Shown here in pieces: positions 1-14,191 of a DNA stretch of 64,000 nucleotides. The stretch covers positions 1,981,501-2,045,500 of the forward strand of contig NZ_PDCM01000001.1 in assembly GCF_008634025.1 (NCBI RefSeq). Reading direction: 5' to 3'. The notes below the pieces were generated by a model that saw only the letters and a program-made list of their open reading frames with translations, was not told the origin of the DNA and did not search any database. This DNA comes from Streptomyces albofaciens JCM 4342 (GTDB lineage: Bacteria > Actinomycetota > Actinomycetes > Streptomycetales > Streptomycetaceae). The translations under genes were made by a program, and so were the position numbers. Numbering within the stretch: the stretch's first letter is position 1; the number at the start of each line of letters is the position of its first letter.

Positions 1-316
1 ACTCGGGGCGGCCGAGCAGCGAGCGGTAGCGCTGCACCGCGCCTCGGGAGCGCGGCGAGTGGGCCCAGGCCTGCCAGCGGCGGTTGGCCTCGCGCAGGTC
101 GGCGCGCGAGGCGCCGAGCGTGCGCAGCGCGTCCTCGACCAGGCCGGGCTGGTGGTCGGCCATCCGGCGCAGCAGGACGAGCTGGAAGGCGAGGGGGCCG
201 TCGGAGGGCGCGCCCGGGCCGTCGCCGGGCCTGCCGGATGCGTCGCCGGGTCCGCCGGAGCCGCCGCCGGGTCCGCCGGAAGATCCGTTGTCAGTGGTGG
301 GGTCCATGATGGACAT
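1..316 (-). CDS. Hypothetical protein, partial (3' end beyond window)
   Basis: An open minus-strand frame starts at ATG 316 (second in-frame ATG at 307) and runs off the left edge without a stop, giving about 105 residues. The first 40 residues are Gly/Pro/Ser/Asp-rich and probably disordered. They are followed by a helical stretch ([20 protein letters not shown], then an LREANRRW segment) rich in Arg, Leu and Ala. I do not recognise a family. It lies 61 bp downstream of the Trm112-like gene on the same strand and could be the last visible member of that cluster. No good ribosome binding site separates the two possible starts. Confidence 0.55.
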
Positions 317-377
317 GGTCGCGGATCCGGCGGATCCGGGCGTGCGGACGGGGCTTCTCAGGACTCGTCACGGCTCG

Positions 378-611
378 TCACGGCTCGTCGGACGGCCGCT
401 CGTCCGGGGGCAGGCGGCGCAGGATGGCTTGGTGTTCGGTTTCGGTGACCTGTTCACCGGAGGAGGGGAGGAGCTGGGGGATGGTGCCGATGATCGGGTA
501 ACGGCGGCGCAGACGGGGGTTGTAGAGCACGTCCTCCGGCAGGAGCAGGGACAGCGGCCCCTTGTCGATCGGACAGACGAGGATCTTCAGCAGCGGGTCG
601 TCGGGCTTCAC
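378..611 (-). CDS. Trm112 family (UPF0434-type) small protein
   Basis: A 77-residue protein starting at GTG 611. The start is supported by a GTGA overlap with the stop of the preceding transporter gene. The sequence LLKILVCPIDKGPL at residues 7-20, then YNPRLRRRYPIIGTIPQLLP at 30-49, is the Trm112/YcaR pattern. Family members are small zinc-ribbon-like partners that activate methyltransferases, or orphan proteins near cell-wall genes. Only one Cys (13) is visible, so a full zinc site is absent; from memory this is usual for actinobacterial members. Two methyltransferase genes lie in the same cluster, making a partner role plausible but unproven. Confidence 0.8.
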   Translation of the reverse strand: MKPDDPLLKILVCPIDKGPLSLLLPEDVLYNPRLRRRYPIIGTIPQLLPSSGEQVTETEHQAILRRLPPDERPSDEP

Positions 612-1588
612 GGGTCGGCTCCTTGGGCGGGGGCGGCGGGCTCCGGCTCCGGCGCTCGTTCCGGGCCCGGTGCCGAGGCGTCGGTGTCCTGGCGGGGCAG
701 GGTGAGCAGGACGAGTACGGCCATCGCGGTGCCGCCCAGGCGCAGCGCGAGGCGCAGGGGGTCGGCGGGCAGCGGCTCGCCGAAGGCGACCGTGCCGCAG
801 GCGGCGGTGAAGACACAGGTGACGGTGGTGCACACGGGGACGATCAAGGAGGCACGGCAGCGCTGGAGCGCGGTCTGCGACAGCACCAGGCCGACCGCGC
901 CGGTGAAGAGCAGCAGATAGGGATACGGGGAGGTGAACAGGGCGCGGACGGTGCCCGCCGGGTCGCGCGCGTCCAGCAGTCCGGAGACGCCTTTGACGGC
1001 GAGCGAGCTGACGCCGTAGAGCAGGCCGACGGCCACGCCGTAGGGGACGCCCGAGGACGGCTGCCGGTGGCGGCGCTTGGCGCGCCGCTCGGCGGACCCG
1101 TACAGCCACAGCCCCGCGGCCAGCGACGGCAGCGCGATGGCCAGCAGGGTGCCGGCGGGGGCGGTGCGGGTGACCGTGCTCGCACCGTTGCCCTGGAGGG
1201 ATGCGACGACCATGCCGAGCGCGAGCAGGATGGCCAGGATGCCGCGCCGCTCCCGGCCGCTGGTGCGCTCGCCGAGGAAGACGGAGGACAGGAGGAGCAG
1301 CAGGACCAGCCCGGAGACGAAGATGCCCTGCGCGGCGGCGATGGGGAGGGTGCGGTAGACCGCGAGCTGGGCGGCGAAGCCGGCGGCGAGGGCCAGCGAG
1401 CCGCCGAGCCACAGTGGACTGCTCAGCAGGTGGCGGACCAGCCGGGCGGGCTGCCGGGTGCTGAGCGCGGGCAGCCCGGACAGGGCGCGCTTCTCCAGCA
1501 CGAAGCCGGTGCTGTACAGGACGTTGGCGAGCAGCGCGGACGCCACGCCCCACCACAGCACCGCCCTACTCCCTTCTCCGGCGGGCAT
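608..1588 (-). CDS. DMT-superfamily (EamA-like) membrane transporter
   Basis: A 326-residue integral membrane protein with nine or ten hydrophobic segments (first at about residues 10-28, last at about 280-300) and a polar Pro/Glu-rich C-terminus. The layout of two repeats of short helices, with FVLEKRAL near the N-terminus and motifs such as QGIFVSGLVLLLLLSSVFLGE ending repeat one, fits the drug/metabolite transporter superfamily (EamA or NIPA-like). Substrate cannot be read from sequence. ATG 1588 lies inside the 3' end of the upstream methyltransferase gene (23-bp overlap) and its stop overlaps the Trm112-like start, so it is translationally coupled. In this cluster it may flip or export a lipid-linked or small precursor; that is inference. 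Confidence 0.82.
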   Translation of the reverse strand: MPAGEGSRAVLWWGVASALLANVLYSTGFVLEKRALSGLPALSTRQPARLVRHLLSSPLWLGGSLALAAGFAAQLAVYRTLPIAAAQGIFVSGLVLLLLLSSVFLGERTSGRERRGILAILLALGMVVASLQGNGASTVTRTAPAGTLLAIALPSLAAGLWLYGSAERRAKRRHRQPSSGVPYGVAVGLLYGVSSLAVKGVSGLLDARDPAGTVRALFTSPYPYLLLFTGAVGLVLSQTALQRCRASLIVPVCTTVTCVFTAACGTVAFGEPLPADPLRLALRLGGTAMAVLVLLTLPRQDTDASAPGPERAPEPEPAAPAQGADP

Positions 1589-2342
1589 GGACGAGCAGGA
1601 TGGAGGCCAGTGACGGCAGGTGGCAGGCGGCGCGGTCCAGGGGCCGCAGCGGACGCGGCACGTCGTGGTACGGCGCGCCCGCGATCCGTACGGCCTCGAA
1701 GCCGCACGCCGTCAGGAAGCCGCGCAGCGCGCGGGCGGTGTAGAGGCGCAGATGGCCGACGACCTGGGTGCCGGGCCGGCCGTGGATGCCTCGCATGCTC
1801 ACCTCCGAGAAGACGGGCTGGATCCCCGCGAGCAGCAGCCCGCGGTTGTACCAGGCGGCGAGATTGGGGGTGGAGAGCATCAGGTGACCGCCGGGGCGCA
1901 GCACCCGCCGCAGTTCGTCCAGGGCCGCGTCGGGGTCGACGAGATGCTCGATGACCTCGCTGAAGAGCACGGCGTCGGCGGCGCCGTCCGCGAACGGCAG
2001 TCCGCCGTCGCCCAGTTCACCGCGTACGGCGTACGGGATCCGGGCCGCCGCGCGGCGCAGCGCGTCCTGCGACCAGTCGACGCCGACGACGCGGTGGCCG
2101 GGCAGCACGGCGGACGCGGTGGCGGCGGCACTCCCGTCGCCGCAGCCGATGTCCAGGACGGTGGCCGGCGGCGCGCCGGGGCGTACCGGCCCCAGGGCGC
2201 GGGCCAGCATCAGCGCCTGGCGCCGGGCGCGCTCGGTACCGGACGCGACGGGCACGGCGGGGTCCTCGTAGAACTCCCGCAGCGCGTCCGGTCGGGCCGG
2301 TGCGGTGCGGTCCTCCGGGGCGACGGCCGGCCGCCGGGTCAC
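1566..2342 (-). CDS. Class I SAM-dependent methyltransferase
   Basis: A 258-residue protein beginning at GTG 2342, chosen because it makes a GTGA overlap with the stop of the condensation-domain gene. SAM-binding motif I is VLDIGCGDG at residues 62-70. An acidic motif II region follows (VVGVDWS, about 86-92), then FADGAADAVLFSEVIEHLVDPDAALDE, typical of methyltransferase-11/UbiE-like folds, and LRPGGHLMLSTPN. The C-terminus matches the second half of glycan or lipid methyltransferases, with YTARALRGFLTACGFE. The acceptor is unknown. It is the distal of two methyltransferases in this envelope-type cluster, and the Trm112-like protein encoded just downstream could be a partner. Confidence 0.88.
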   Translation of the reverse strand: MTRRPAVAPEDRTAPARPDALREFYEDPAVPVASGTERARRQALMLARALGPVRPGAPPATVLDIGCGDGSAAATASAVLPGHRVVGVDWSQDALRRAAARIPYAVRGELGDGGLPFADGAADAVLFSEVIEHLVDPDAALDELRRVLRPGGHLMLSTPNLAAWYNRGLLLAGIQPVFSEVSMRGIHGRPGTQVVGHLRLYTARALRGFLTACGFEAVRIAGAPYHDVPRPLRPLDRAACHLPSLASILLVHARRRRE

Positions 2343-3805
2343 GGCGCGCCTCCCCCGGCCTCCGGCGACCACGACGTGGCTGCCAGCGACCGGGCGAAGA
2401 GGGCGCCCAGGCGGGCACCGGCCGCGTCGTCCAGCAGGGCGTGCGACCAGCGCAGCGCGAGCTGGATGCGCCCGCCGACGGAGACGGTGGTGACGGTCAG
2501 CCCGCGCGGCATCCGGGCCGGGGCCGAGAACCACACGGCGGTGGGCCGCCCCGCGTCGCCGAAGTCGAGGGGGTAGGGGATGCGGCCGATGTTGGAGAGC
2601 AGCGTGGTGGAGGCCAGGGGCGCGGCGGCCGTGCGCAGCGCCCGCGTCAGCGCCCCGCGCAGCCCGACCGGCAGCACCGGAGCGGTCAACAGGGATGCTC
2701 CGAGGCCGAGTTGCGAGCCCGGGGCGGATTTCAGGGAGCGGGTGCGGGCGGCGGTGCGCCGCAGCAGCCGGGCGACCGCCGCCGGGTCGGGCGGCTCGGC
2801 CGTGAGCAGCCCGGCGTCCTGCCGCTCCTCCGGCCCGAAGCCGACCGAGACCAGCCGGGTGCCGTTGCCGATGGGCATGTCCGTGCCGCGCGGGCGGTCG
2901 TCCACCGGCATGGTGACCACGACCGGCGCGCTCGGCCGCCCGTGCAGGCGGTTCCAGCGGGCCACCATCAGGCAGGTGGCGACCAGCAGCTGGTCGTTGA
3001 CGGTGTAGGCGGCGACGCCGTCGGTTCGGGGCGGGCGGGCCGGGACGGGCAGTTCGGTGATCAGCATGCCGTTGCCGGTGGCGTGCCGGGCGCCGCCGCC
3101 CCGGCCGCCCGCACGGGGCCCGCGGTCGCCGGCGATCCGTACGGGCCGGGTGGGCCGGTGGCCGCCGAGCGGTGGCGATGTGTCCTGCGGCCCGTCGGCC
3201 GCGGCGGTCCCGGCCGCGCGTACGGGGGCCGGCGCCGGGGAGTTGTCGGCGCCGCCGTAGAGCTGGGCGGCGGTGGCCAGTACGCGCAGGCAGGCCGGGC
3301 CGTCCAGGGCGGTGTGGTTGATGGTGATGAGCAGAACGGTTCCCCCACCGCCGTCGCCACCGCCGCCGCCCTCCTCCGCCTCCTGCTCGATGACCTCCAG
3401 CCGTACCGGCGGCGACGCGTCCAGCGGCGGCAGGTCGGTCAACGCCCGCCCCCTGGCCAGGTCGAGCGCGTCCGGCCCGGGCGGCGGGAAGACGACCGGG
3501 TCCCCGTCCGGCACGCCGGTCAGCTCCCACTCGTACCGCCGCCGCCACCACCGGTGCGGGGCCTGGCGCATCAGGATGCGGGGGTGCCGGCACAGCGCTT
3601 CGCGGAACGCGGCCCGCAGCCGGCCGGGATCCGGCTTCCCGGGCAGGTGCACCTCGATGTGCACGGTTTCCGGTTCGTCGGCCGTGAGGCAGTGCCGGGT
3701 GATCTCGTCCACCACCGGGAACGGGACGCGCCGTACGGGCCGGTCCGCCGCCCCGGAGGGCCCGTTCCCGGCCGGTTCCCGCCGGGCCGGCTGGAGTGCG
3801 GTCAT
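2339..3805 (-). CDS. Condensation-domain acyltransferase-like protein
   Basis: A 488-residue protein. ATG 3805 overlaps the stop of the AftD-like gene (ATGA). The motif NHTALDG at residues 163-169 is the HxxxDG active site of the condensation/CoA-dependent acyltransferase superfamily (NRPS C domains, PapA, wax-ester synthases), with His164 as presumed base. The C-terminal half has TLLSNIGRIPYPLDFG and an IQLALRWSHALLDDAAG segment, as in the second lobe of these enzymes. No adenylation or carrier domain is fused or nearby. A poly-Gly/Glu insert (about 140-156) and a Pro/Arg/Gly-rich loop (about 186-245) interrupt the first lobe. In this cluster it plausibly acylates a glycan or lipid; the substrate is not evident. 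Confidence 0.8.
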   Translation of the reverse strand: MTALQPARREPAGNGPSGAADRPVRRVPFPVVDEITRHCLTADEPETVHIEVHLPGKPDPGRLRAAFREALCRHPRILMRQAPHRWWRRRYEWELTGVPDGDPVVFPPPGPDALDLARGRALTDLPPLDASPPVRLEVIEQEAEEGGGGGDGGGGTVLLITINHTALDGPACLRVLATAAQLYGGADNSPAPAPVRAAGTAAADGPQDTSPPLGGHRPTRPVRIAGDRGPRAGGRGGGARHATGNGMLITELPVPARPPRTDGVAAYTVNDQLLVATCLMVARWNRLHGRPSAPVVVTMPVDDRPRGTDMPIGNGTRLVSVGFGPEERQDAGLLTAEPPDPAAVARLLRRTAARTRSLKSAPGSQLGLGASLLTAPVLPVGLRGALTRALRTAAAPLASTTLLSNIGRIPYPLDFGDAGRPTAVWFSAPARMPRGLTVTTVSVGGRIQLALRWSHALLDDAAGARLGALFARSLAATSWSPEAGGGAP

Positions 3806-6800
3806 CGGGTGGGTCCCTCCCCGGTTCGGTCCGAAGGATCTGACGGGTCCGGTGGCGTGGCGTCCGGGCGTGCGGTATCCGGTGGTGTGGCGTCCGGGCG
3901 TGCGGTATCCGGTGGTGTGGCGTCCGGGCGTGCGGTATCCGGTGGTGTGGCGTCCGGGCGTGCGGTATCCGGTGGTGTGGCGTCCGGGCGTGCGGTATCC
4001 GGTGGTGTGGCGTCCGGGCGTGCGGCGTCCGGCCGCGCGGCGTCCGGCGGTGCCCCGTCCGGTGGCGCGGCATCCGGCCGCGCGGCATCCGGTGGCGCGG
4101 TACGCCGCCGTCGGCGCGGCAACGGCGGCAGGGGCGGCCTCCGCTTCCGCACGCCCGCTCCTCCCCCTCGGGCCCCTATTTCCGGCTCCGGCCCCGGCGA
4201 CTCCGCGCCCGAGCCCGCCGGTGCCGTAGCCGGCGCCGGTTCCTCCTCCGGCCCCGGCCCGGCCCCCGCATGCGCCCCGCGCCGCGCCTTCCCGGCCGGC
4301 ACCGTCACCACCGCCGCCGCCAGCCCCAGCAGGGCCAGCGCCTGAGCAGTCGCGCTGAACGGACCGTCACCGGCGGCGGGGGACCCGCCCGCGCCGAGGG
4401 CCGCCGTGATCCCGGCTCCGAGCATCGCCAAAAGCGCGAGCGGTACGAGCAGCCCGTGCCGGAACCGGGCCACCAGGGCCAGCAGCGGAACGATCACCGC
4501 GTACGGCCCGGCGGCGAGGGCCACGACCACCGTGAGGGCGACGGCCCCCAGCACCCAGGACGGCGCGGGCGGCGCCTGCGGCTCCGGCGGGGTGCGCCGT
4601 GTCCGGCGTACCAGGGCCGAGCCGATGAGCAGCGCGATGCCGAGCGCGCCACCGAACAGCCCCAGGTCGTACGCGGTGGACGGTGCGTACGTCAGCCGCA
4701 CCATGCCGCTCTCGCCCGCCGGGATCAGGAACCCCTGCTGCCACCCGTCGAGGCGCACGGGGGACAGTTCGCGCCCGTTGAGCGTCGCGCGCCAGCCGGC
4801 GTTGGCGTTCTCGTACGTCTGGAGGTACGCGGCCCCGCCCGTGCCCACCTGGACCGTGCGGCGGTCGCCCGCCCAGTCGCGCGCGGTCACGCTCCGCCGC
4901 TCGGTGGCGGGCGCGGGGGCGCTGCCCCGGCTGAGGGTGACGTCCGTCAGCGCCAGCGGGCCCTGGTCGCCGGCCTCCACCCGGTGCTGTCCGGACGGCA
5001 GGTCCAGCCGCCCGTCGCGTGCCTCGCCCGCGCACAGTTCGACCTTGACCGGTCGGCGTTCGGTCAGATCACGTACGTAACCGGAAGCCTTGGTGGCGTG
5101 CAGCGTGCCGTCCACGGCGAGCGGCGGGCCCTGTCCGCAGGCGAGCGAGAACCGGTCGCCCGCGGAGGGCGGCGGCGTCCGCAGGTCGTCCAGGGCGGGG
5201 ACGTGGACCTCGCTCAGGCCGACGGGCAGTTGCAGGGCCTCGCCCACCACCGGGTTGTGGAGGGTGAGCTCCTTGACCTTGCTGATGGTGATGTCGAGGC
5301 GGTCGGTGGTGATGGGGTCGAAGCGGGCCCAGCCGTTCTCGTCCACCCCGGCGGTCGCCGCGCCGTCGGGCGAGTTGACGAGGATCTCCTCGGGCCGGGT
5401 GGAGACGCCGCCCGCCGCGGCCAGCACGATCCGGTCGATGCTGCGCTTGCCGGACCAGCGCAGGTGCAGGGTCGCTTTGTCGCCCGCGATCCAGGCGGTG
5501 GTCAGATCGCCGTCCACCAGGTTGCGGGGGCTCACCTGGGGGCCGGAGCCGAAGGCCGTGGAGTCGGCGGTGACGGTGATCCGGTTCCGCTTCCCGGGCG
5601 CCGCCCGGTCCAGCAGCTGGTCGAGTTCCGGCCCGGGTACGGCCACCGCCCGGCCGGAGACCCGGTACGCCCCGTCCGTACCGGTACGGAACTGCCGGTG
5701 CAGCCCCACCTCGGCGGAGACCGGCGACAGGCCGCCGGGGTCGCTGCCGCGGTGCAGCGAGTACGTCGCGGCCGGTGAGGTGGACTTCTCGGCGTCCGCC
5801 GGGAGCCGCAGCAGCCGGGTGACCTGCACGCCCGGGATCGACACCTCGGAGAAGCCCGCGCCGGACACTCCGGCGCGCGGTGTCTGCGCCGCGGTGATGG
5901 TGATCTTCAGCCACTTCGCGGTGCCGCGCGGGGCCCAGATCCGCTGCCTTTGGCCGTTGGTCAGCAGCGGGGTGGCCACACTGCCCCGGTCGGTCTGGAC
6001 GCGTACGGAGGTCGGCGCCGCGCGCATCCCGTCGCCGGGCAGCGGCGTCAGCGAGATCGTGGACGGTATGTACGTGGGCCGGGTGAAGCCGACGCGCAGC
6101 CACTGGCCCACCGGATCGCCCGCGCTGCCTTCCGCCCAGCCGGTTTTCGGATCGCCGTCGAAGGCGTGCACCGGATCGTACTGCGGCAGGTGGAAGAGCC
6201 AGTTGCCGCTGCTGGAGGCGGTGACGGAGGCGGCGCCGCGCAGCACCCCGGTGGTCTGGTGCGCGATGCCCTCGGTCGGCAGGATCTGCCGGGGTTCGCG
6301 CCCGGGGTCCTGGAGGCTGTCCGGGTGATTTCGCTCGCCGGGCGTATATGTGTAGGACGTGTTGGAGTTGACCAGGCCGAACCGGGTGTCGGCACGGCGC
6401 AGCCCGTCGCCGGTCAGCTGGAGCGGCGGGGTGCCGACGCCCGGGTGGTTGTCGCCGGTCAGCACGGCCGGGCGGTGCCGCAGCGCGGGGTCGGCGGACA
6501 GCGGGAGCAGCGCCTCCGGCCCCCCGCTGACCTGCGCCGTGTCGGCGACCGGCAGCGCGGTGACCGGGCCGGGCCGCGGGGTGTCCACCGGTTCGTAGAT
6601 CTCCACGGCGCGCTGGCGCGGGTACAGGCCCTGGATCTGCACCGGCGTGCCGGGGGCGATCTTCCCGTCCGTGGTCAGCGGCCCGAACGCGGCCACCTTC
6701 CGGTAACCGGACGCCTCCAGGGTGCGTTTGACGGTCTGCGTCGGCACGTAGCCGATCTGGTCGGGGTCCAGGTCATTGCGTACCACCACGTCGTACAGCC

Positions 6801-8409
6801 CCGCCCGGCCCAGGAAGTCGCGCAGCCCCGGCACCTCCGAGCCGGACATCAGGGCCTGTTCGACGGCGTCCATGGCGCGCCGCACGCCCGGCGTGCCGAA
6901 CGGCACGAAGTCCCGCTGCGCCCAGCGGGATTCCGCCAGCACGTCCAGGGGGTGGTCGATGGGGGAGCCCCAGGTGTAGATGCCGTGCGCGGTGGCGGGG
7001 ACGACGAGGGCGCGGTTGTCGGGGGTGTGCTTCTTGAGCCAGTCGGCGGTGCGTTCCCAGGCAGACGGCAGCTTCTTGAAGGCGCCCGGTTGGAGGACGG
7101 TGCCGTTGAGGTACGGGAGGGCCAGGGCAGGGAGCGTCGACAACGCGAGGACCAGGGGCACGTACCGCCGTCCCGGTACGCGCCGGGTGCCGCGCCGCTC
7201 GGCGGCCACGCCGAGGATGTGGGCGAGGCCGAAGGCCAGGGCCAGGGCCAGGCCGGGCTGGAACTTGTAGATGTTGCGGAACGGCCGCAGCCAGCCGTCC
7301 AGCCAGTCCTGCCACAGCCCGTGGAACGGACCGCCCAGCGAACCGGCGTACCCGGCCAGGCAGATACCGGCCACCACCAGCACGGTCAGCAGCAGCCAGC
7401 GCCGCTCCGGCACGTCCCGGCGGGCCAGTCCGGCCAGGCCCAGCGCGGCGGCCAGCGCCGTCCCGAGGACCGCGCCGGCCCCGGCCACCAGGGTCCAGCC
7501 GGCGGGCAGCCACGGTTCGCCGAAGTTCAGGTAGCCGACCCAGTTGCCGGCGCCGCGCAGCAGTTCGGTCGCCGACATGGTGCCGGTCGTGGTGGTCGCC
7601 TGCTCGATGTACGGCATGAAGTTCTCGCCGTACACGCCGAGCAGCAGCAGCGGCACCGACCACCACGCGGTCGCCAGGATGACGCCGGGAACCCACCACA
7701 CCAGCAGTGACCTGCGCCGGGGCCCGGTGCGCGAGAGCACGTACAGCAGGACGGGCAGCAGCGAGGCCAGTGTCGAGGCCGCGTTGACGCCGCCCATGAA
7801 CGGGATGAGCAGCGCGGAGCGGGTGGCGGCCAGGCGGGCCGGGGCGCGGTGGTCGGTGAGCGGCAGCAGCACCCACGGCAGCAGCGCGCCGGGCAGGGCG
7901 GCGGCGGACGTGGAGCCGATGAGCATGGTGAAGACCGGCCACAGCGCGTACGCGGCGGCGGCGAGCAGCCGGGTGGGCGGGGACCCGACGCGCAGCCGCT
8001 CGGCCAGCCGCAGCGCGCCCCAGAAGGCGGTGGTGACGATCAGCGACATCCACAGCCGCTCGGCGATCCACACCGGCAGGTGCACCAGGTCGGCGAGGGC
8101 GTAGTAGGGGAGGGACGGGAAGGCGTAGCCGACGTACTGGTCCGTGATGCCGCCGAAGCCCGCCCGGTCGTGCCACAGCTGTCCCAGGTCGCCCAGGAAC
8201 TTCCAGGGGTCGGTGGTCACGCCCAGTTTGGTCTCGAAGGTCATCTTCCCGAAGGAGGGCACCAGGAAGAGCACGAAGGCCAGGGCCCAGAACGCCGGCA
8301 GCCAGCGCCGGGACCGGGGCCGCTCGGGCGGTGGCGCGCCCGGCGCGGCCGCCGGGGTGCCCCCGGCGTCCGGTGAACCCGGTGAGCTGGACACGAGCGT
8401 CTGGGTCAT
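3802..8409 (-). CDS. AftD-like GT-C glycosyltransferase (DUF3367 family) with C-terminal tandem-repeat tail
   Basis: A 1535-residue protein; ATG 8409 overlaps the upstream methyltransferase stop (ATGA). After a Pro-rich cytosolic start (1-34) comes a polytopic GT-C module of about ten membrane segments to about residue 440. It contains FETKLGVTTDPWKF at 58-71 and a YVGYAFP segment in the first outer loop, typical of DUF3367/AftD arabinosyltransferases. A long extracytoplasmic region follows with discoidin/F5-8C-like carbohydrate-binding modules (for example NLVDGDLTTAWIAGD) and a terminal beta domain, then three or more membrane helices (about 1250-1390). The last 100 residues are a Pro/Asp/Ala repeat. 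AftD is known from arabinan assembly in mycobacteria, but streptomycetes lack arabinogalactan, so donor and acceptor here are open. Confidence 0.9.
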   Translation of the reverse strand: MTQTLVSSSPGSPDAGGTPAAAPGAPPPERPRSRRWLPAFWALAFVLFLVPSFGKMTFETKLGVTTDPWKFLGDLGQLWHDRAGFGGITDQYVGYAFPSLPYYALADLVHLPVWIAERLWMSLIVTTAFWGALRLAERLRVGSPPTRLLAAAAYALWPVFTMLIGSTSAAALPGALLPWVLLPLTDHRAPARLAATRSALLIPFMGGVNAASTLASLLPVLLYVLSRTGPRRRSLLVWWVPGVILATAWWSVPLLLLGVYGENFMPYIEQATTTTGTMSATELLRGAGNWVGYLNFGEPWLPAGWTLVAGAGAVLGTALAAALGLAGLARRDVPERRWLLLTVLVVAGICLAGYAGSLGGPFHGLWQDWLDGWLRPFRNIYKFQPGLALALAFGLAHILGVAAERRGTRRVPGRRYVPLVLALSTLPALALPYLNGTVLQPGAFKKLPSAWERTADWLKKHTPDNRALVVPATAHGIYTWGSPIDHPLDVLAESRWAQRDFVPFGTPGVRRAMDAVEQALMSGSEVPGLRDFLGRAGLYDVVVRNDLDPDQIGYVPTQTVKRTLEASGYRKVAAFGPLTTDGKIAPGTPVQIQGLYPRQRAVEIYEPVDTPRPGPVTALPVADTAQVSGGPEALLPLSADPALRHRPAVLTGDNHPGVGTPPLQLTGDGLRRADTRFGLVNSNTSYTYTPGERNHPDSLQDPGREPRQILPTEGIAHQTTGVLRGAASVTASSSGNWLFHLPQYDPVHAFDGDPKTGWAEGSAGDPVGQWLRVGFTRPTYIPSTISLTPLPGDGMRAAPTSVRVQTDRGSVATPLLTNGQRQRIWAPRGTAKWLKITITAAQTPRAGVSGAGFSEVSIPGVQVTRLLRLPADAEKSTSPAATYSLHRGSDPGGLSPVSAEVGLHRQFRTGTDGAYRVSGRAVAVPGPELDQLLDRAAPGKRNRITVTADSTAFGSGPQVSPRNLVDGDLTTAWIAGDKATLHLRWSGKRSIDRIVLAAAGGVSTRPEEILVNSPDGAATAGVDENGWARFDPITTDRLDITISKVKELTLHNPVVGEALQLPVGLSEVHVPALDDLRTPPPSAGDRFSLACGQGPPLAVDGTLHATKASGYVRDLTERRPVKVELCAGEARDGRLDLPSGQHRVEAGDQGPLALTDVTLSRGSAPAPATERRSVTARDWAGDRRTVQVGTGGAAYLQTYENANAGWRATLNGRELSPVRLDGWQQGFLIPAGESGMVRLTYAPSTAYDLGLFGGALGIALLIGSALVRRTRRTPPEPQAPPAPSWVLGAVALTVVVALAAGPYAVIVPLLALVARFRHGLLVPLALLAMLGAGITAALGAGGSPAAGDGPFSATAQALALLGLAAAVVTVPAGKARRGAHAGAGPGPEEEPAPATAPAGSGAESPGPEPEIGARGGGAGVRKRRPPLPPLPRRRRRTAPPDAARPDAAPPDGAPPDAARPDAARPDATPPDTARPDATPPDTARPDATPPDTARPDATPPDTARPDATPPDTARPDATPPDPSDPSDRTGEGPTR
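3851..4030. repeat. 30-bp tandem repeat, six copies, inside the AftD-like gene
   Basis: Six consecutive 30-bp units lie at 3851, 3881, 3911, 3941, 3971 and 4001. The four central copies are identical, the first differs by one base and the last diverges at its end. A degenerate 15-bp half-period continues to about 4104. On the coding (minus) strand each unit encodes ten residues of the type PDATPPDTAR, so copy-number change keeps frame and only alters the length of the disordered cytosolic tail. Confidence 0.95.
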
Positions 8410-9131
8410 GGCAACCGCCGCAGGATGAGGAGGAGGTTCCAGGTGGCCACTTCACGGACGACCGGCAGGCGCGGGATCGTTTCGGCGAAGAACGGCGCGT
8501 ACCGGGAGCGGGCCGTCACGATCCGTACGTCGTCGCGGGAGCGGAGGTGCCGCAGGGTCGGGCCGATGTGCAGGGCGAAGAGGTTCTCGCCCAGGGTGTG
8601 CTTCGCGGTCCGGCCGGTGCGCCACCGATAGAGCGTGCGGGCCCGCCCGGCGCCCAGGTAATGCCAGGGCGCGGTCTCGTGTCCACCCCACGGGGAGAGC
8701 CAGTTGGTGAACGAGAGGTAGATCAGGCCACCCGGCCTGGTGACCCGCACCAGCTCGCTCAGGAAGGTCCGCGGATCCGCCACGTGCTCCAGGACGTTGG
8801 ACGCGAAGCACACATCGGCGGCGCCGTCGGCCAGCGGGAGGAGATAGCCGTCGGCGAGCACGGCGCCCGGCGGCGTCCGGCCGCGGGCGGTCAGCTCGCG
8901 CGGGTCGGGCTCGAAGAGGTAGCCGAGCGCGCCGCGCCGCCGGAACTCCTCGGTGAAGTGCCCGCTGCCGCCGCCGATGTCCGCGACGACGCGCCCCTTC
9001 AGCGGCTCGTACCGTTCGATCTGGTCGGCGGCGTCGCGCGCGAGCAGGCCGTAGCAGTGCTCGGGATCGTGCTGTTCGCGCAGGAAGGCGCGGAAGAGGG
9101 TGAGTGATCTGCGCAGGGAAGGGTCCCGCAC
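8406..9131 (-). CDS. Class I SAM-dependent methyltransferase
   Basis: A 241-residue protein starting at GTG 9131, seven bases after the glycosyltransferase stop. Motif I is VVADIGGGSGHF (about 48-59), followed by a ELTARG/GAVLADGYLLPLADGAADVCFASNVLEHVADP stretch with the methyltransferase-11 signature and the R-V-T-R-P-G-G-L motif. A YLSFTNWLSPWGGHETAPWH segment resembles sugar or lipid-linked glycan methyltransferases that recognise a polar acceptor. The stop overlaps the AftD-like start, indicating coupled translation. The gene is almost always expected beside such a GT4/AftD pair in this kind of cluster; the exact acceptor is unknown. Confidence 0.88.
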   Translation of the reverse strand: MRDPSLRRSLTLFRAFLREQHDPEHCYGLLARDAADQIERYEPLKGRVVADIGGGSGHFTEEFRRRGALGYLFEPDPRELTARGRTPPGAVLADGYLLPLADGAADVCFASNVLEHVADPRTFLSELVRVTRPGGLIYLSFTNWLSPWGGHETAPWHYLGAGRARTLYRWRTGRTAKHTLGENLFALHIGPTLRHLRSRDDVRIVTARSRYAPFFAETIPRLPVVREVATWNLLLILRRLP

Positions 9132-9138
9132 CTCAGCA

Positions 9139-10362
9139 TCACCGCCCGGCGGGGAGGTCGAGGTGGGCCCGGTCGTACGACTCGGCCGCCACCGCGCGGA
9201 AGCTGCGCACCGTGGCGCTCCAGCGGAACCGGGCGGCCCGGCGCGCGGCGGCGGCGCCCAGGGCGTGCCGGCGCGGGCCGCTGAGCGCCAGCGTGCACCA
9301 GTGCGCGGCGAAGGAGCTCTCGCCGCGGGCCAGCAGCCCGGTCGTCCCGTCGTCCACCGAGTCGCGCAGGCCGGGGATGTCGAAGCCGACGGTCGGGGTG
9401 TGCCGGGCGGCGGCCTCCATGACCACCAGGCCCCAGCCCTCGACCAGCGACGGGTGCAGCAACAGCCAGGCGCGGCACAGCAGTTCGTGCTTGTCCTGCT
9501 CGCTGATCCGGCCGGTGAAGTGCACGCCGGGCCCGGCCGTCGCCTCCAGCCGGGTGCGCTCCGGCCCGTCCCCGACGATCACCAGCCGGCCGCCGGTGAC
9601 CGGCCGCACCCGCTCCCACAGGCGCAGCAGCAGATCGACGCGCTTGTACTCGACCAGCCGCCCCATGGCCAGGAACAGCGGCTCGGGCGACTCGGGGAGC
9701 AGCGGCCCCGGCTCGGCCACGCCGTTGTGCACCAGCCGGATACGGTCCCGCGCCACGCCGAGCCCGCGCAGCGCGGCGGCGGTCGAGCCGGACACCGCGA
9801 CCATGAGGTTGCCGCGGTGGGCGCCGGCCAGCGCCCAGTGCTCCAGGCGGCGGCCGAGCCGGGCGGCGGGCGCCGGGTAGCGCAGGCCCCACAGGTCCGT
9901 GTGGACGTGGTTGACCAGGCACAGCGTCGGGCCGCGGTGCCAGAGGGGGGCCAGGTACGGCATGCCGTTGCAGACCTCGACCAGCAGGTCGCAGGGGCCG
10001 ACGCGGCGGGCGAGCCGGCGGCGGACGCGCAGGTAGTGCCCGGCGTCGCCGCCCGCGGAGACCACCCGGTAGCCGTGCTCGGCCACCGGGCCGCCGCACA
10101 GCAGGGTGACCTCGTGGCCGTGCGCGGTCAGGCCCTCGGCGATGCGGTCCACGAGCAGTTCGGAGCCGCCGGCGGCGGGGTTGCCGAGGTCGCGGCGGGC
10201 GAGGAAGACGATGCGCCGGGGGAGTACGGGGGGCTGGTGTGCTGATCGGGCGGGTGGTGCCTCGGCAGCGGGGGATGCCGGTGGTACGGGCGGTACGGGG
10301 TGTCCTGGTGCGGGATGTGCGAGCGGTGCGGCGGACGAGGACGGTCGTACGTGCTGGGGCAT
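9139..10362 (-). CDS. Glycosyltransferase family 4 protein
   Basis: A 407-residue GT-B glycosyltransferase. Residues 1-48 are Pro/Ala-rich and low complexity, so the annotated ATG may be upstream of the true start. The N-terminal Rossmann domain begins RIVFLARRDLGNPAAGGSELLV (about 50-71). The C-terminal nucleotide-sugar domain contains FLAMGRLVEYKRVDLLL, IVGDGPER and the EX7E motif (Glu308 and Glu316 in LVEGWGLVVMEAA). It is cytosolic, using an NDP-sugar donor. It heads the tightly packed part of the cluster, upstream of a methyltransferase and the AftD-like protein, consistent with assembly of a lipid-linked oligosaccharide; the sugar is not predictable. Confidence 0.88.
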   Translation of the reverse strand: MPQHVRPSSSAAPLAHPAPGHPVPPVPPASPAAEAPPARSAHQPPVLPRRIVFLARRDLGNPAAGGSELLVDRIAEGLTAHGHEVTLLCGGPVAEHGYRVVSAGGDAGHYLRVRRRLARRVGPCDLLVEVCNGMPYLAPLWHRGPTLCLVNHVHTDLWGLRYPAPAARLGRRLEHWALAGAHRGNLMVAVSGSTAAALRGLGVARDRIRLVHNGVAEPGPLLPESPEPLFLAMGRLVEYKRVDLLLRLWERVRPVTGGRLVIVGDGPERTRLEATAGPGVHFTGRISEQDKHELLCRAWLLLHPSLVEGWGLVVMEAAARHTPTVGFDIPGLRDSVDDGTTGLLARGESSFAAHWCTLALSGPRRHALGAAAARRAARFRWSATVRSFRAVAAESYDRAHLDLPAGR

Positions 10363-10578
10363 GTGCGCTCCAACTCGTCTCAGGGTGCGGTACCAATGGT
10401 GTGGGGGGACGTACTGCGTACTGAGCCGTGCGGGCCTGCCGGCCGGGGAACAGCGTCGTGTCGTGGGGACATCGGTGGGTGAGCTGGATAGTTTTCGCCG
10501 CCCTGTTCGATGCGGCTACTCACCGGCGTGACAATTTCCGCTCCTCTTCGAGCTGACGCCTCATCACTTCGCGCAGGA

Positions 10579-11526
10579 TCAGCTGAACCGCCGCCTCCCG
10601 CGCACCACGAGCACCACGCCGAAGAGCGTCAATCCGCCGCCCGCCACCGCCGCCACGACCGGCGCCGTCTCGCCGACCCGCGCCAGCTTGGTGCTGTCCG
10701 CGTCCGCCAGCGCCACCTGTGCCCGCTGGGTCGCGGGGGTGAACTCCAGACCGTCGGCGCGCAGCAGGGTCACCGCGTCGGTCCGCGCGCCGGGGGCCCG
10801 CAGTGTCTTGTGCGGGGAGATGGACGCGTTGATGATGCGGCCGGTACGCCGGTCGACGACCAGCTCGATACGGCTGTTCGCGTACCACTCCTCGGCCTGG
10901 ACCTGGCCCTGCGCGGGCCGCCCCACCAGCCGCCCCGGCACCTGCCGGCTGCCCGTCCTGGTGGGCTCGACGGTCCCGGTGAAGCGGTAGCCCTCGTACC
11001 CCTGCACCCGGCTGGTGCCCGCGAAGCGGAGCGGGACCGCGGCGCCCAGCGTGTTGTCCCACCAGCGGTACGTCCGGCGCTGCACGTCGAAGGGGAACTT
11101 CAGGTACGCCTCCCCCTCGAAGCGGGTCGGCGCCTCCTCGCAGCAGTGCACCGGGGCGTTGGTGCGCCGGTCGGTCACCCAGCGCTCCACCGTCCACTGG
11201 AACGCCCTGCGCGGGTCCTTCAGCGCCAGCGTCACCGGCGTGTCCACGGTCGTGGACACGTCCCACACGGCCCGCCCGCTGCGCTCGCTCTCCGCCACAT
11301 CGCCCAGCACGTGCCGGGTGATGGTGATCTTCTGTTTGCTCCTGGTGCGCAGCGATTCGGCGTCGAAGTAGCTGCCGGTGCCGGTGAAGACGGTGGTCGT
11401 GTCGACGTCCACCGGGGTGCGCTGGGCGCGCGGTGCCACGTACCAGGCGAGCATCGGCGCGAGCACCAGGAGGAAGACGCCGAGTCCCAGCAGGACCAGG
11501 GAAAAGGGCGAGGCGGTCTTACGCAT
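10579..11526 (-). CDS. DUF3068 (PorA-family-like) membrane-anchored protein
   Basis: A 315-residue protein with one N-terminal membrane segment (about 7-31, LVLLGLGVFLLVLAPMLAWYV), a long exported beta-rich domain and a second membrane helix at about 288-308, then a short RRRRFS tail. This two-helix layout with motifs such as TTTVFTGTGSYFD, WDVSTTVDTP and GYEGYRFTGTV is the DUF3068 pattern, which databases sometimes label porin PorA family. The function is not established; porin activity in a Gram-positive without mycomembrane is doubtful. It is separated by 216 bp from the glycosyltransferase gene on the same strand, and is probably the first gene of, or partner to, the envelope cluster. Confidence 0.85.
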   Translation of the reverse strand: MRKTASPFSLVLLGLGVFLLVLAPMLAWYVAPRAQRTPVDVDTTTVFTGTGSYFDAESLRTRSKQKITITRHVLGDVAESERSGRAVWDVSTTVDTPVTLALKDPRRAFQWTVERWVTDRRTNAPVHCCEEAPTRFEGEAYLKFPFDVQRRTYRWWDNTLGAAVPLRFAGTSRVQGYEGYRFTGTVEPTRTGSRQVPGRLVGRPAQGQVQAEEWYANSRIELVVDRRTGRIINASISPHKTLRAPGARTDAVTLLRADGLEFTPATQRAQVALADADSTKLARVGETAPVVAAVAGGGLTLFGVVLVVRGRRRFS

Positions 11527-11727
11527 ACGAGCACTCCTGAGGGCGGCGGGGGCAGTGCGCGTGCGGCGGGGCGGTGGTCCGGGTGAACGGGCGGGAACCG
11601 TAGGCGACCGCTTGACACGCCGTCAATGCCCCCACACACTCGGCAGGCACCGCGGCCGTCCGCGGACGGGCCGGACCGGTGCGCCGCGCCACCTCGACGT
11701 ACCTGCCACGAAGGGGCCCGCCGCGCC

Positions 11728-11871
11728 ATGCACAGACTGCTCGCCGCCGTACTGACCTCGCTGGCCGCCGCCGCTCTCGCCGTGGGCGCCGCCCTCGGCA
11801 TCGTCGCCGCCCTCGACACCACGCCGGAGCAGCCGAACGTGCCCCTGGTGAGCTTCGGCCGGACGCCGTAG
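11728..11871 (+). CDS. Small secreted DUF2613-like protein
   Basis: A 47-residue protein starting at ATG 11728, with a single hydrophobic segment (residues 4-29, Ala/Leu/Val/Gly-rich with the LAVGAALGIVAAL pattern) and an 18-residue polar tail ending VSFGRTP. This is the shape of DUF2613, a tiny actinobacterial exported protein. From memory, the mycobacterial member Rv0236A lies beside aftD, matching the position here next to the AftD-like cluster. It starts divergently from DUF3068 and ends 14 bp before the PucR gene, so may be co-transcribed with it. Family assignment is moderate because short sequences carry little signal. Confidence 0.6.
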   Translation: MHRLLAAVLTSLAAAALAVGAALGIVAALDTTPEQPNVPLVSFGRTP

Positions 11872-11885
11872 GGGAGGACGCAGGC

Positions 11886-13121
11886 GTGGTGGAGACCGTC
11901 CGCTCGGCGTGGCGCGACGTACCCCCGGCGCAGGTACGGGAGTTCGCCGCCCGCGTCCTCGACGAGGTCCCGGCGCTCGCCCAGCGGATTCTGGCCGAGA
12001 TCCGCCGTGAATACCCGCAACTGCCGCTCGCCGTGGACGAGTACGGCGAGCCGCGCGCCCTGACCGGCATCCGCCAGTCGCTGGAGCACTTCGTCCGGCA
12101 CATGTCCGCCGGCCTGGACCTGCCGCACGTCCACCCGCGCATCTTCCAGGAGTTCGGCCGCGGCGCGGGCATCCAGGGGCGCAGCCTGGACGCCCTCCAG
12201 GCGATCTACCGGCTGGGCGTACGGCTGGCCTGGCGGCGGCTGGCCGAGATCGGCCAGCAGGTGGCGATCCCGGCCCCCGCCATGTACGAACTGGCCGAAT
12301 CCGGCTTCGAGTACCTGGACGGGCTGGTGGCCGAATCCGTACGCGGCTTCGCCGAGGCGGCGGCCCGCCAGGCGGGCGAACGGCTGCGGCACCAACGGCG
12401 GCTCATGGAGCAGCTGTTCGCCACCGGGGCCCGCGCGCACACGGCGCCCGCGCTCACCGACCGCGCCGCCCGGATCGGCTGGGCGCTGCCCGAACGGGTC
12501 GCGGTGGCCGTACTGCTGCGCCCGGCCCGCGAGTCCGTCGCCCCCGCCGTCGGTGCGGACGTCCTCCTGGACATGGAGTGTGAGCGGCCCCGCATGGTCG
12601 TACCGGAACCGGACGCCGCCGGACGCCGGGAACTGCTCCAGCGCGCTACGGCCGGATGGTCGGGCGCGCTCGGCCCGGCCGTACCTCTGGCCGACGCGGC
12701 CAAGTCCCTGCGCTGGGCGAGCGCCGCCGTCGAACTGATGGAACGCGGCCTGCTGCCCGCCGGACAGCTGCTGCACTGCACCGAGCACACCGAGGCGCTG
12801 GTCCTGCTGCCGCCGGAAGAACTGATCGAGGACCTGACCCGGCGGCGGCTGGAACCCCTGGCGCACTGCGGCCCGACTCACGGGCGCCGGCTGGCCGAGA
12901 CCCTGCTCGCCTGGCTGGAGACGCGCGGCGGCGCGCCAGAGGTGGCCGCCCGGCTCGGCGTCCACCCGCAGACCGTGCGCTACCGGCTGCGTCAGATACG
13001 GGAATTGTGGGGCGACGAGGTGGACGACCCGGACCGCCGCTTCGAACTGGAACTGGTGCTGCGGGCCCGGCGGCTGCGCGGCGAACTCAGCGTGCCGGGC
13101 CGCTCTTCCTGCCCTCGATGA
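11886..13121 (+). CDS. PucR/CdaR-type helix-turn-helix transcriptional regulator
   Basis: A 411-residue regulator. GTG 11886 (or GTG 11889) follows a GGGGAGG ribosome binding site with about 8 bp spacing. The N-terminal half (about 1-170) is helical, like the RsbT-regulator/PucR N-domain. A GGDEF-like CdaR middle follows, and the C-terminus holds the HTH_30 motif GGAPEVAARLGVHPQTVRYRLRQIRELWG. There is no Cys cluster or PAS signature, so the effector is unknown. It lies 14 bp downstream of the DUF2613-like gene and its 3' end overlaps the convergent GntR-TetR gene by 35 bp. The target is not visible; autoregulation or control of the neighbouring envelope genes is possible. Confidence 0.88.
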   Translation: MVETVRSAWRDVPPAQVREFAARVLDEVPALAQRILAEIRREYPQLPLAVDEYGEPRALTGIRQSLEHFVRHMSAGLDLPHVHPRIFQEFGRGAGIQGRSLDALQAIYRLGVRLAWRRLAEIGQQVAIPAPAMYELAESGFEYLDGLVAESVRGFAEAAARQAGERLRHQRRLMEQLFATGARAHTAPALTDRAARIGWALPERVAVAVLLRPARESVAPAVGADVLLDMECERPRMVVPEPDAAGRRELLQRATAGWSGALGPAVPLADAAKSLRWASAAVELMERGLLPAGQLLHCTEHTEALVLLPPEELIEDLTRRRLEPLAHCGPTHGRRLAETLLAWLETRGGAPEVAARLGVHPQTVRYRLRQIRELWGDEVDDPDRRFELELVLRARRLRGELSVPGRSSCPR

Positions 13122-14103
13122 ACATCTCGTAGCCGTCCAGCAGCCGGGCCATACCGAACTCGAACAGCTCGTCGAGCCGCAGCATCTCCGCGTCGTCCAT
13201 GTCGTTGATCCCCTCGTACATGGGGAACGAACCGGACCTGATGATCCGCTCGTACTCCGGCCCCAGCGACTCCATCCACTGCTCCACGTCCATGCCGGTC
13301 CGCTGCTCGGCCTCCAGGTCCTCCTCCAGGGCGACCGCCGTGCCGCGTACGTGGTTGACCAGCGTCAGGGCCAGCCGGAGCTTGGCCAGCGGGTCGAGCC
13401 GCGTCACCGCGGCCATGGTCCACTCGATGACGACCATCGCGTGCGGCATCGGCTGCGGGCGGATGAGCGACAGATACTGGGCCACCCACGGATGCCGCTG
13501 GTACAGCTTCCACTGGAGACGGGCCCCGGCCTCCATCCGCGCGCGCCAGTGCCGGGGCGCCGGTTCGGGCAGTTCGATCTCCGCGAAGGTGGCGTCGGCC
13601 ATCAGCAGGACCAGCTCGTCCTTGTTCGCCACATGGCGGTAGAGCGCCATCGAGGACACGCCGAACTCGGCCGCGATACGGCGCATCGACAGCGCGCGCA
13701 GCCCCTCGGCGTCGGCGATCCGGATGCCGGCCCGGATGATGCGGGCGCGGTTCAGGCCGGGGGGCTGGGCGGCGGGTCGGCCCTGAGCGGCCGGGGGGTT
13801 CCGGCGGCCGCCGCCGGAGCCGGGGACGGCGCGTGTCCGGGGCGCGGGCCCGCCGTCCGTGCGTACTCCGGTCGCGGCGACCACCGTCCCCACGCCCGGC
13901 ACGGCCCGTACCAGCCCCTCCTGACGCAGCGTCGTCAGCACCTTGGTGGCGGTCGCCATCGCCACGCCCCACTCCTGGGTGATCCGCCGCGTCGAGGGCA
14001 CGCGGTCGCCCTCGGCCAGCTCCCCACGGTCGATCCGGCGCCGGATCTCCGCGACGATCCGGCGGTACGGGGGCGGGGGCGAAGGGGAGGTCGGACGGTC
14101 CAT
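13087..14103 (-). CDS. GntR-TetR fusion transcriptional repressor
   Basis: A 338-residue protein from ATG 14103 with two DNA-binding domains. A GntR winged helix lies at about residues 12-75 (YRRIVAEIRRRIDRGELAEGDRVPSTR, then WGVAMATATKVLTTL). After a Pro/Gly/Arg linker comes a TetR helix-turn-helix at about 117-165 (RIADAEGLRALSMRRIAAEFGVSSMALYRHVANKDEL). The C-terminal domain resembles the tetracycline-repressor C-domain (TetR_C_1). This architecture recurs in Streptomyces next to efflux pumps. It is divergent from the MFS gene across an intergenic region with paired palindromes, so repression of both genes relieved by a drug-like ligand is the likely model. An upstream in-frame ATG at 14187 would add 28 unlikely residues. 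Confidence 0.9.
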   Translation of the reverse strand: MDRPTSPSPPPPYRRIVAEIRRRIDRGELAEGDRVPSTRRITQEWGVAMATATKVLTTLRQEGLVRAVPGVGTVVAATGVRTDGGPAPRTRAVPGSGGGRRNPPAAQGRPAAQPPGLNRARIIRAGIRIADAEGLRALSMRRIAAEFGVSSMALYRHVANKDELVLLMADATFAEIELPEPAPRHWRARMEAGARLQWKLYQRHPWVAQYLSLIRPQPMPHAMVVIEWTMAAVTRLDPLAKLRLALTLVNHVRGTAVALEEDLEAEQRTGMDVEQWMESLGPEYERIIRSGSFPMYEGINDMDDAEMLRLDELFEFGMARLLDGYEMFIEGRKSGPAR

Positions 14104-14118
14104 GGCGGCATCCTCCGT

Positions 14119-14191
14119 ACTAGTGCACCAGGGGTCTGTGCGGACAACGGTACCGCCCTGACGCGGAGGTGCACCTCCCAAGTGCACTAGT
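14119..14191. promoter_or_regulatory. Paired palindromic operators between GntR-TetR gene and MFS gene
   Basis: ACTAGTGCAC at 14119-14128 and its exact reverse complement GTGCACTAGT at 14182-14191 flank a perfect 14-bp palindrome GGAGGTGCACCTCC at 14165-14178. All three share the core GTGCAC. The position between divergent genes fits operators for the GntR-TetR repressor. Confidence 0.7.

Follow-up and report, generated by a model that had tools for sequence, protein, structure and literature searches.

A set of nine genes near the left end of a 64,000-nucleotide stretch of the Streptomyces albofaciens JCM 4342 genome (contig NZ_PDCM01000001.1, positions 1,981,501 to 2,045,500; the whole stretch is referred to here as the window) corresponds in its core to a published envelope locus of Corynebacterium glutamicum and mycobacteria. 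The aftD-tmaT-lmcA/pgfA-mmpA-GT-mtrP locus of Corynebacterineae (NCgl2759-2765/cg3160-cg3168; published Mycobacterium tuberculosis members include Rv0226c and Rv0227c) shares with the window genes for AftD, a DUF3068 protein of the LmcA/PgfA family, a glycosyltransferase of family 4 (GT4), and an MtrP-type methyltransferase. The streptomycete form adds a condensation-fold acyltransferase, a second methyltransferase, a DMT transporter, and a Trm112-like protein and is without TmaT and MmpA. The gene families, the four counterparts, the shared presence of genes among genomes, and their fixed order are all read from sequence. We favor, with modest confidence, the interpretation that the set is the streptomycete version of the Corynebacterineae locus and serves an envelope glycolipid or lipoglycan that is acylated and methylated and is neither a mycolate nor arabinogalactan. 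It probably builds and exports a surface glycolipid or glycan different from that of mycobacteria and corynebacteria, because the few Streptomyces genomes tested are without key mycolic-acid and arabinan enzymes.

An initial annotation had taken these genes for an uncharacterised locus complete for one glycan, a reading that is partly supported as a whole. The locus is only in part uncharacterised, given its four counterparts in a studied locus, and the claim of an undescribed locus reduces to a variant of an already known type whose product and mechanism are inferred. That the set is complete for one glycan likewise goes beyond what was seen, and the C. glutamicum counterparts serve two pathways, that of lipomannan and lipoarabinomannan (LM/LAM) and that of trehalose mycolates (PMC8698533). 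Titles and the opening parts of abstracts, with subscription papers mostly outside the scope, yielded no earlier description of the streptomycete locus; Streptomyces rimosus aftD is mentioned in passing in PMC6437091.

Organization of the locus

The locus was compared with 20 loci fetched from 18 AftD-positive Streptomyces genomes, two of which contribute two copies each. Its genes in the window are as follows.

378 to 611, minus strand: Trm112-like protein, 77 amino acids (aa) (PF03966, 36.3 bits against a cutoff of 22, scanned as part of a longer frame); in all 20 fetched loci
608 to 1588, minus strand: DMT-type (NIPA/EamA-like) transporter, 326 aa (PF05653, Mg_trans_NIPA, 32.9 bits against a cutoff of 26.2); in 19 of 20 fetched loci
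1566 to 2342, minus strand: class I S-adenosylmethionine (SAM) methyltransferase 2 (MT2), 258 aa, GTG start (PF13489/PF08241 in frame 1566-4088)
2339 to 3805, minus strand: putative free-standing condensation-fold acyltransferase (COND), 488 aa, with HxxxD(G) (weak TIGR02946 match, motif, predicted fold)
3802 to 8409, minus strand: AftD-like GT-C membrane glycosyltransferase, 1535 aa, with an F5/8-type C domain (PF11847, 720.9 bits against a cutoff of 26; PF00754, 34.5 bits)
8406 to 9131, minus strand: class I SAM methyltransferase 1 (MT1), MtrP counterpart (43% identical over 245 aa to the product of the gene in the MtrP position of reference locus L079, described below)
9139 to 10362, minus strand: GT4 glycosyltransferase, counterpart of the cg3166-type putative glycosyltransferase (PF13692/PF00534; 34% identity over 320 aa to the L079 GT4)
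10579 to 11526, minus strand: DUF3068/PorA domain protein of the LmcA/PgfA family (PF11271, 263.8 bits; NF053601 PgfA, 328.9 bits against a cutoff of 160)
11728 to 11871, plus strand: small divergent protein of about 47 aa with one hydrophobic segment, conserved in 20 of 20 fetched loci (listed open reading frame starts at 11626)

The seven genes from the Trm112-like gene to GT4 (378-10362) are packed as the initial annotation described, with overlaps of 4, 23, 4, 4, and 4 bp and a 7-bp gap between MT1 and GT4, and the DUF3068 gene does lie 216 bp upstream of GT4. Three of its domain names fit less closely. The protein called an EamA transporter is of DMT type, with an EamA match under the cutoff and a better fit to Mg_trans_NIPA. 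The condensation-domain assignment finds no Pfam match at an E value of ≤0.01 and stands on the HxxxD motif, the predicted fold, and a TIGR02946 (WS/DGAT family) match of 21 bits, far below the cutoff of 309.95. The small gene is divergent and conserved, as noted, and has no DUF2613 match at an E value of ≤0.1; the sequences place its start probably at 11728 rather than 11626, which gives 47 aa, and its product ends in P-[ED]-QPN-[VT]-PL in all 20 fetched loci. A small secreted or membrane protein stands near both the Corynebacterineae and the streptomycete loci, and the likeness is one of position; homology with small proteins beside AftD in other families is unsupported (best E value, 0.05).

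The start of MT2 was picked from its 4-bp overlap, and one family scan used a copy short by 13 residues. Its GxGxG motif occurs in 21 of 21 sequences, apart from one G-to-A change in L069, and the GT4 motif EGWGLxVxEA occurs in 20 of 21 rows, the odd row (L064) being a wrong gene call. The DUF3068 domain is now named PorA in Pfam, and NCBIfam names the locus protein PgfA. From these family assignments, the Trm112-like protein is a possible partner of a methyltransferase, the DMT protein a proposed exporter or flippase, and the DUF3068 protein a proposed anchored lipid-binding protein.

Counterparts in Corynebacterineae

The published C. glutamicum row comprises a secreted protein (cg3160), AftD (cg3161), TmaT (cg3163), two membrane proteins (cg3164 and cg3165), a putative glycosyltransferase (cg3166), and MtrP (cg3168), whose precise function is called unknown in the same account (PMC7775120). 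TmaT, MtrP, and MmpA are required for acetylated trehalose corynomycolate and its transport and NCgl2760 for LM/LAM; a strain that has lost NCgl2760 is affected in LM/LAM but not in trehalose corynomycolates, whereas loss of tmaT, mmpA, or mtrP leaves LM/LAM maturation unaffected (PMC8698533). That work also reports that NCgl2760 and NCgl2761 are cotranscribed and that MmpA resembles the N-terminal part of AftD. PgfA belongs to the LmcA family (PMC8972800, PMC9678360), and the mycobacterial protein interacts with MmpL3, the mycolate lipid transporter.

As a reference we used L079, a locus from a genome of family f3 that carries both Emb and full-length Pks13. Its order is AftD, an MFS transporter, a phosphotriesterase-like protein, a coenzyme A (CoA) ligase, an acyltransferase, PgfA, MmpA, GT4, and an MtrP-type methyltransferase, with AftD, PgfA, MmpA (656 bits), GT4, and the MtrP-type gene within one 16-kb stretch. 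The acyltransferase, which gives a weak SucT match, may be TmaT, judging by its position. The window AftD is 33% identical to its L079 counterpart over 1311 aa, which bears out the AftD-like assignment of the initial annotation over some 1,300 residues. L079 MtrP scores 179 bits against MT1, compared with 35 against MT2 and 29 against one other methyltransferase. The locus DUF3068 protein passes the PgfA model at twice its cutoff, yet it is only 26% identical over 184 aa to the L079 PgfA (LmcA/PgfA being MSMEG_0317 and NCgl2760), and it matches the sequence of the LmcA crystal structure (7n3v) in part (E value, 2.4e-05). The PgfA/DUF3068 family occurs in 114 of 150 Streptomyces genomes, compared with 60 that have AftD. 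The window genome carries a second member (G000:C1:2597523-2598425; L103 9509-10504) near DNA polymerase I and a HrpB-type helicase gene.

Conservation across Streptomyces

AftD and COND were each found in 60 of the 150 Streptomyces genomes, and 59 of the COND-positive genomes are AftD positive. The AftD-positive genome without COND (G443) is a draft that is 82% complete, and the only COND match outside the AftD-positive set (G451) is weak (2.5e-5). MT1, at an E value of ≤1e-30, was found in 58 genomes, all AftD positive; in the two AftD-positive genomes without a match (G426 and G464), AftD sits at a contig end. These counts are taken as one 150-genome sample, judged from genome handles and tallies.

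Gene order, which the initial annotation had proposed to survey, is likewise constant. All nine genes stand in the same order in 19 of the 20 fetched loci, the exception (L071) being without the transporter. A named-species scan with the COND alignment gave 332 relatives; among the best 80, all titled Streptomyces, 67 had full flanks, and 66 of these show the same order. S. rimosus and S. canus are two of the species that the scan listed. The exception, L184 (S. sclerotialus), again is without the transporter; in L141 a single open frame holds the transporter and Trm112, their order unchanged, and this locus was added on inspection to the 65 of 67 that conformed when order was scored by gene ends. 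Embleya has the same gene set. The supported conclusion is that the genes behave as one conserved unit, and the conservation of set and order across many species rules out chance or artifact as the origin of the arrangement. Pairwise-identity correlations among PgfA, MT1, AftD, COND, MT2, and DMT range from 0.74 to 0.93 with species descent uncontrolled, and those of GT4 are spoiled by the wrong L064 gene call; they are not relied on here.

Two genomes, G442 (L065 and L066) and G492 (L063 and L064), each carry two complete, clearly different copies of the set, with AftD 63% identical and one copy nearer a contig end. AftD was found in 4 of 72,556 plasmid records, including megabase "plasmids" of Embleya and Nonomuraea, so that no true plasmid cassette emerged (phages were not searched). 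S. rimosus aftD is listed among the most often recombined genes of its species (PMC6437091); this would fit a variable surface structure and proves nothing.

The AftD-like and condensation-fold proteins

The window AftD aligns with a solved mycobacterial AftD structure (6wbx) over residues 32 to 1365 (E value, 1.8e-127), GT-C and carbohydrate-binding parts included. GT-CA enzymes hold a catalytically essential aspartate at JM1 (PMC12041299), and we judged from conservation which of two AftD aspartates is the JM1 residue. All 62 streptomycete copies have a carboxylate in this position, before Thr-Lys (Asp in 43, Glu in 19), and K61, N209, E269, R336, and R378 are retained in at least 95% of 43 aligned AftD-family rows. 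Where mycobacterial-type AftD (L079) reads Asp-Thr-Lys-Leu-Asp, 61 of the 62 streptomycete copies read Asp/Glu-Thr-Lys-Leu-Gly, and one (G450) has a final Ala. Mycobacterial AftD is an arabinofuranosyltransferase (6w98/6wbx); unlike it, the streptomycete protein has no Emb-made arabinan acceptor. MmpA was considered as an identity for the window AftD and excluded, with no pairwise match at an E value of ≤0.01 and no NF053599 match in the genome. The C-terminal end of the AftD-like protein (from 3802 upwards) carries proline-rich PDATPPDTARPDA-type repeats. Two loci from other classes or families, L095 and L088, have two AftD-family genes per 20-kb stretch, in tandem in L095, which suggests that the family has expanded outside Streptomyces.

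COND is predicted to adopt an acyltransferase-type condensation fold with the HxxxD motif. It thereby shares the predicted fold and the His-Asp motif of PapA/WS-DGAT acyltransferases while missing the family cutoff, and its sequence is weakly similar to that of SgcC5 (4znm; E value, 0.008).

The module outside mycolic-acid bacteria

Emb (PF04602) was detected in 5 of 24 genomes, all of family f3, and in 0 of 13 Streptomyces, which excludes arabinogalactan proper as the product in the sampled Streptomyces. Pks13 exceeded its cutoff in 7 of the 24 genomes; the five f3 genomes do so by a single match over positions 1 to 1679, and the window genome (G000) and G023 pass only when modules within giant open frames are added together, so that none of the 13 sampled Streptomyces has a full-length match. 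MmpA (NF053599) exceeded its cutoff in 11 of 48 genomes (5/5 of f3, 3/3 of f5, 1/1 of f7, and 2/3 of f20).

Three of the four loci taken from f5 and f7, families of the same class, hold MmpA, GT4, MT1, AftD, a TmaT-type acyltransferase, and PgfA within a single stretch (L085, L086, and L087); in the fourth, L088, the fetched stretch contains no PgfA. Acyltransferase-3 proteins occur in L085 and L086, and relatives of the L079 acyltransferase occur in L087, L088, Nonomuraea, and Nocardia. All six genes were found in Nocardia farcinica and all but a detected MT1 in Nonomuraea gerenzanensis; we take Nonomuraea to be without mycolates. The four f5/f7 genomes pass neither the Emb nor the Pks13 model, and the module is therefore not tied to mycolates. 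MmpA in these genomes contradicts a printed remark that it is without homologues beyond corynebacteria and mycobacteria (PMC8698533).

A candidate arabinose donor

The initial annotation had found AftD surprising because streptomycetes have no arabinogalactan. The absence of Emb from the sampled Streptomyces agrees with its premise, but the surprise is weakened, as the window genome passes models for decaprenylphosphoryl-arabinose enzymes: DPPR synthase at 403 bits (cutoff, 207), DprE1 at 660 (500), and DprE2 at 377 (250). An arabinose donor in this genome is therefore possible on these model matches. Genes for a GtrA-type protein, DPPR synthase, DprE1, and DprE2 cluster on G000:C2 (L121, 7467-11998), a possible decaprenylphosphoryl-arabinose pathway in Streptomyces; the DPPR synthase gene lies at G000:C2:3554273-3555154. 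G193, a genome without AftD, has genes for DPPR synthase, a PAP2 phosphatase, and DprE1 (L124).

DPPR synthase exceeded its cutoff in 56 of the 150 Streptomyces. AftD-positive genomes account for 32 of these (out of 60) and AftD-negative genomes for 24 (out of 90), with an odds ratio of 3.1 (P = 0.0011, uncorrected for descent); in the other 28 AftD-positive genomes the synthase was under the cutoff or missing. It was above the cutoff in 31 of another 43 AftD-carrying genomes in the phylum, 9 of them f3 (a count that left out G122 and G303, which have AftD matches below the cutoff only), and in none of the four f5/f7 genomes. Because it is patchy among AftD-positive genomes, the arabinose donor is not the general donor of the AftD family. 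Nor was a link shown between DPPR synthase and the JM1 residue (26 of 43 genomes with Asp versus 6 of 17 with Glu; P = 0.09).

Proposed role and alternatives

Under the interpretation that we favor, GT4 would attach the first sugar to a lipid within the cell, and MT1 (MtrP-like) and MT2 (with the Trm112-like protein) would methylate the glycolipid. The condensation-fold enzyme may acylate it, providing another route to the job done by TmaT in mycolate makers, and the DMT protein could move the glycolipid, or a donor, across the membrane. DUF3068/PgfA would carry the lipid on the outer face, where the AftD-like GT-C enzyme may add sugars from a polyprenyl-phosphate sugar, with the acceptor presumably held by the F5/8-type domain.

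Several points weigh against this interpretation. The activities of all the locus proteins are inferred from sequence and models; the COND model is of modest confidence, and the fold matches listed for it are mostly nonribosomal peptide synthetase (NRPS) condensation-type domains. The streptomycete locus has no TmaT-type (Acyl_transf_3) or MmpA-type gene, and MmpA was found in 0 of 13 Streptomyces genomes. The GT4 and MT1 matches are comparisons among a few proteins only, not genome-wide. The second PgfA of the genome is about as close to mycobacterial-type PgfA as the locus copy (phmmer, 41 versus 43 bits; slightly better by BLAST), and the f7 PgfA fits the second copy better (121 versus 107 bits); the locus PgfA is thus not a clear orthologue of the mycobacterial protein. 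The JM1 residue of the window AftD is Glu, not Asp. Finally, one locus need not mean one product, if the two pathways served by the C. glutamicum counterparts (PMC8698533) are a guide.

This last point leads to the strongest alternative, which we nonetheless think fairly unlikely: the genes would lie together for coordinated envelope growth, with DUF3068/PgfA and AftD contributing to a lipoglycan and a separate glycolipid depending on the methyltransferases, acyltransferase, and transporter. It would agree with the different products affected in the C. glutamicum NCgl2760 mutant and in the tmaT, mmpA, and mtrP mutants (PMC8698533), and with the 216 bp that set PgfA apart from GT4. The five overlaps and single 7-bp gap argue the other way, as do similar junctions in the fetched loci (where start picking favored 4-bp overlaps) and the joint presence or absence of the three tested genes in the 150 genomes. 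A different doubt concerns AftD itself, which might be a membrane and glycan-binding scaffold with no working transferase. An anchor role of this kind has been suggested for the AftD-related MmpA (Rv0226c), which resembles the AftD N terminus (PMC8698533), and the Glu at JM1 and the AftD-positive Streptomyces without DPPR synthase above the cutoff are in keeping with it; given the JM1 carboxylate kept in every streptomycete copy and the five other conserved residues, we regard a pure scaffold as improbable. That the locus is a secondary-metabolite cluster, in which the condensation-fold enzyme, methyltransferases, GT4, and transporter serve to decorate a small molecule and export it, with AftD and DUF3068 re-used, seems very improbable to us. 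COND does align well with NRPS condensation-type structures, with SgcC5 as its weak sequence relative, and AftD is confined to 60 of the 150 Streptomyces. Against this stand the lack of NRPS, polyketide synthase, or carrier-protein matches in the window genes that make up the set, the order kept across many Streptomyces and Embleya, and the four genes that correspond to envelope genes.

A bolder extension of the envelope-glycolipid interpretation, which we offer tentatively and consider doubtful, is that Streptomyces with the set make an acylated, methylated envelope glycolipid that is arabinofuranosylated outside the membrane from decaprenylphosphoryl-arabinose and that the mycobacterial gene set for trehalose-mycolate and LAM traffic goes back to an older actinobacterial module for export and glycosylation, one that existed in the absence of mycolates. 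An arabinose-phospholipid pathway in Streptomyces would, if true, be unexpected. MtrP, LmcA/PgfA, and MmpA are named for mycolate and LAM roles; the module in genomes without full-length Pks13 or Emb, together with its modified Streptomyces version, suggests that the core chemistry is wider than mycolate transport. Streptomyces may be a host that survives single deletions and allows a direct search for the product.

Neighboring genes

At the left edge of the window, a gene at 2-316 is cut by the boundary; in the whole genome (L127) it encodes 222 aa with no family match, and it was kept out of the set because it is present at only 13 of the 20 fetched loci. On the other side of the set, 13087-14187 encodes a predicted protein with both GntR-type and TetR-type regulator domain matches, beside a divergent MFS transporter gene.

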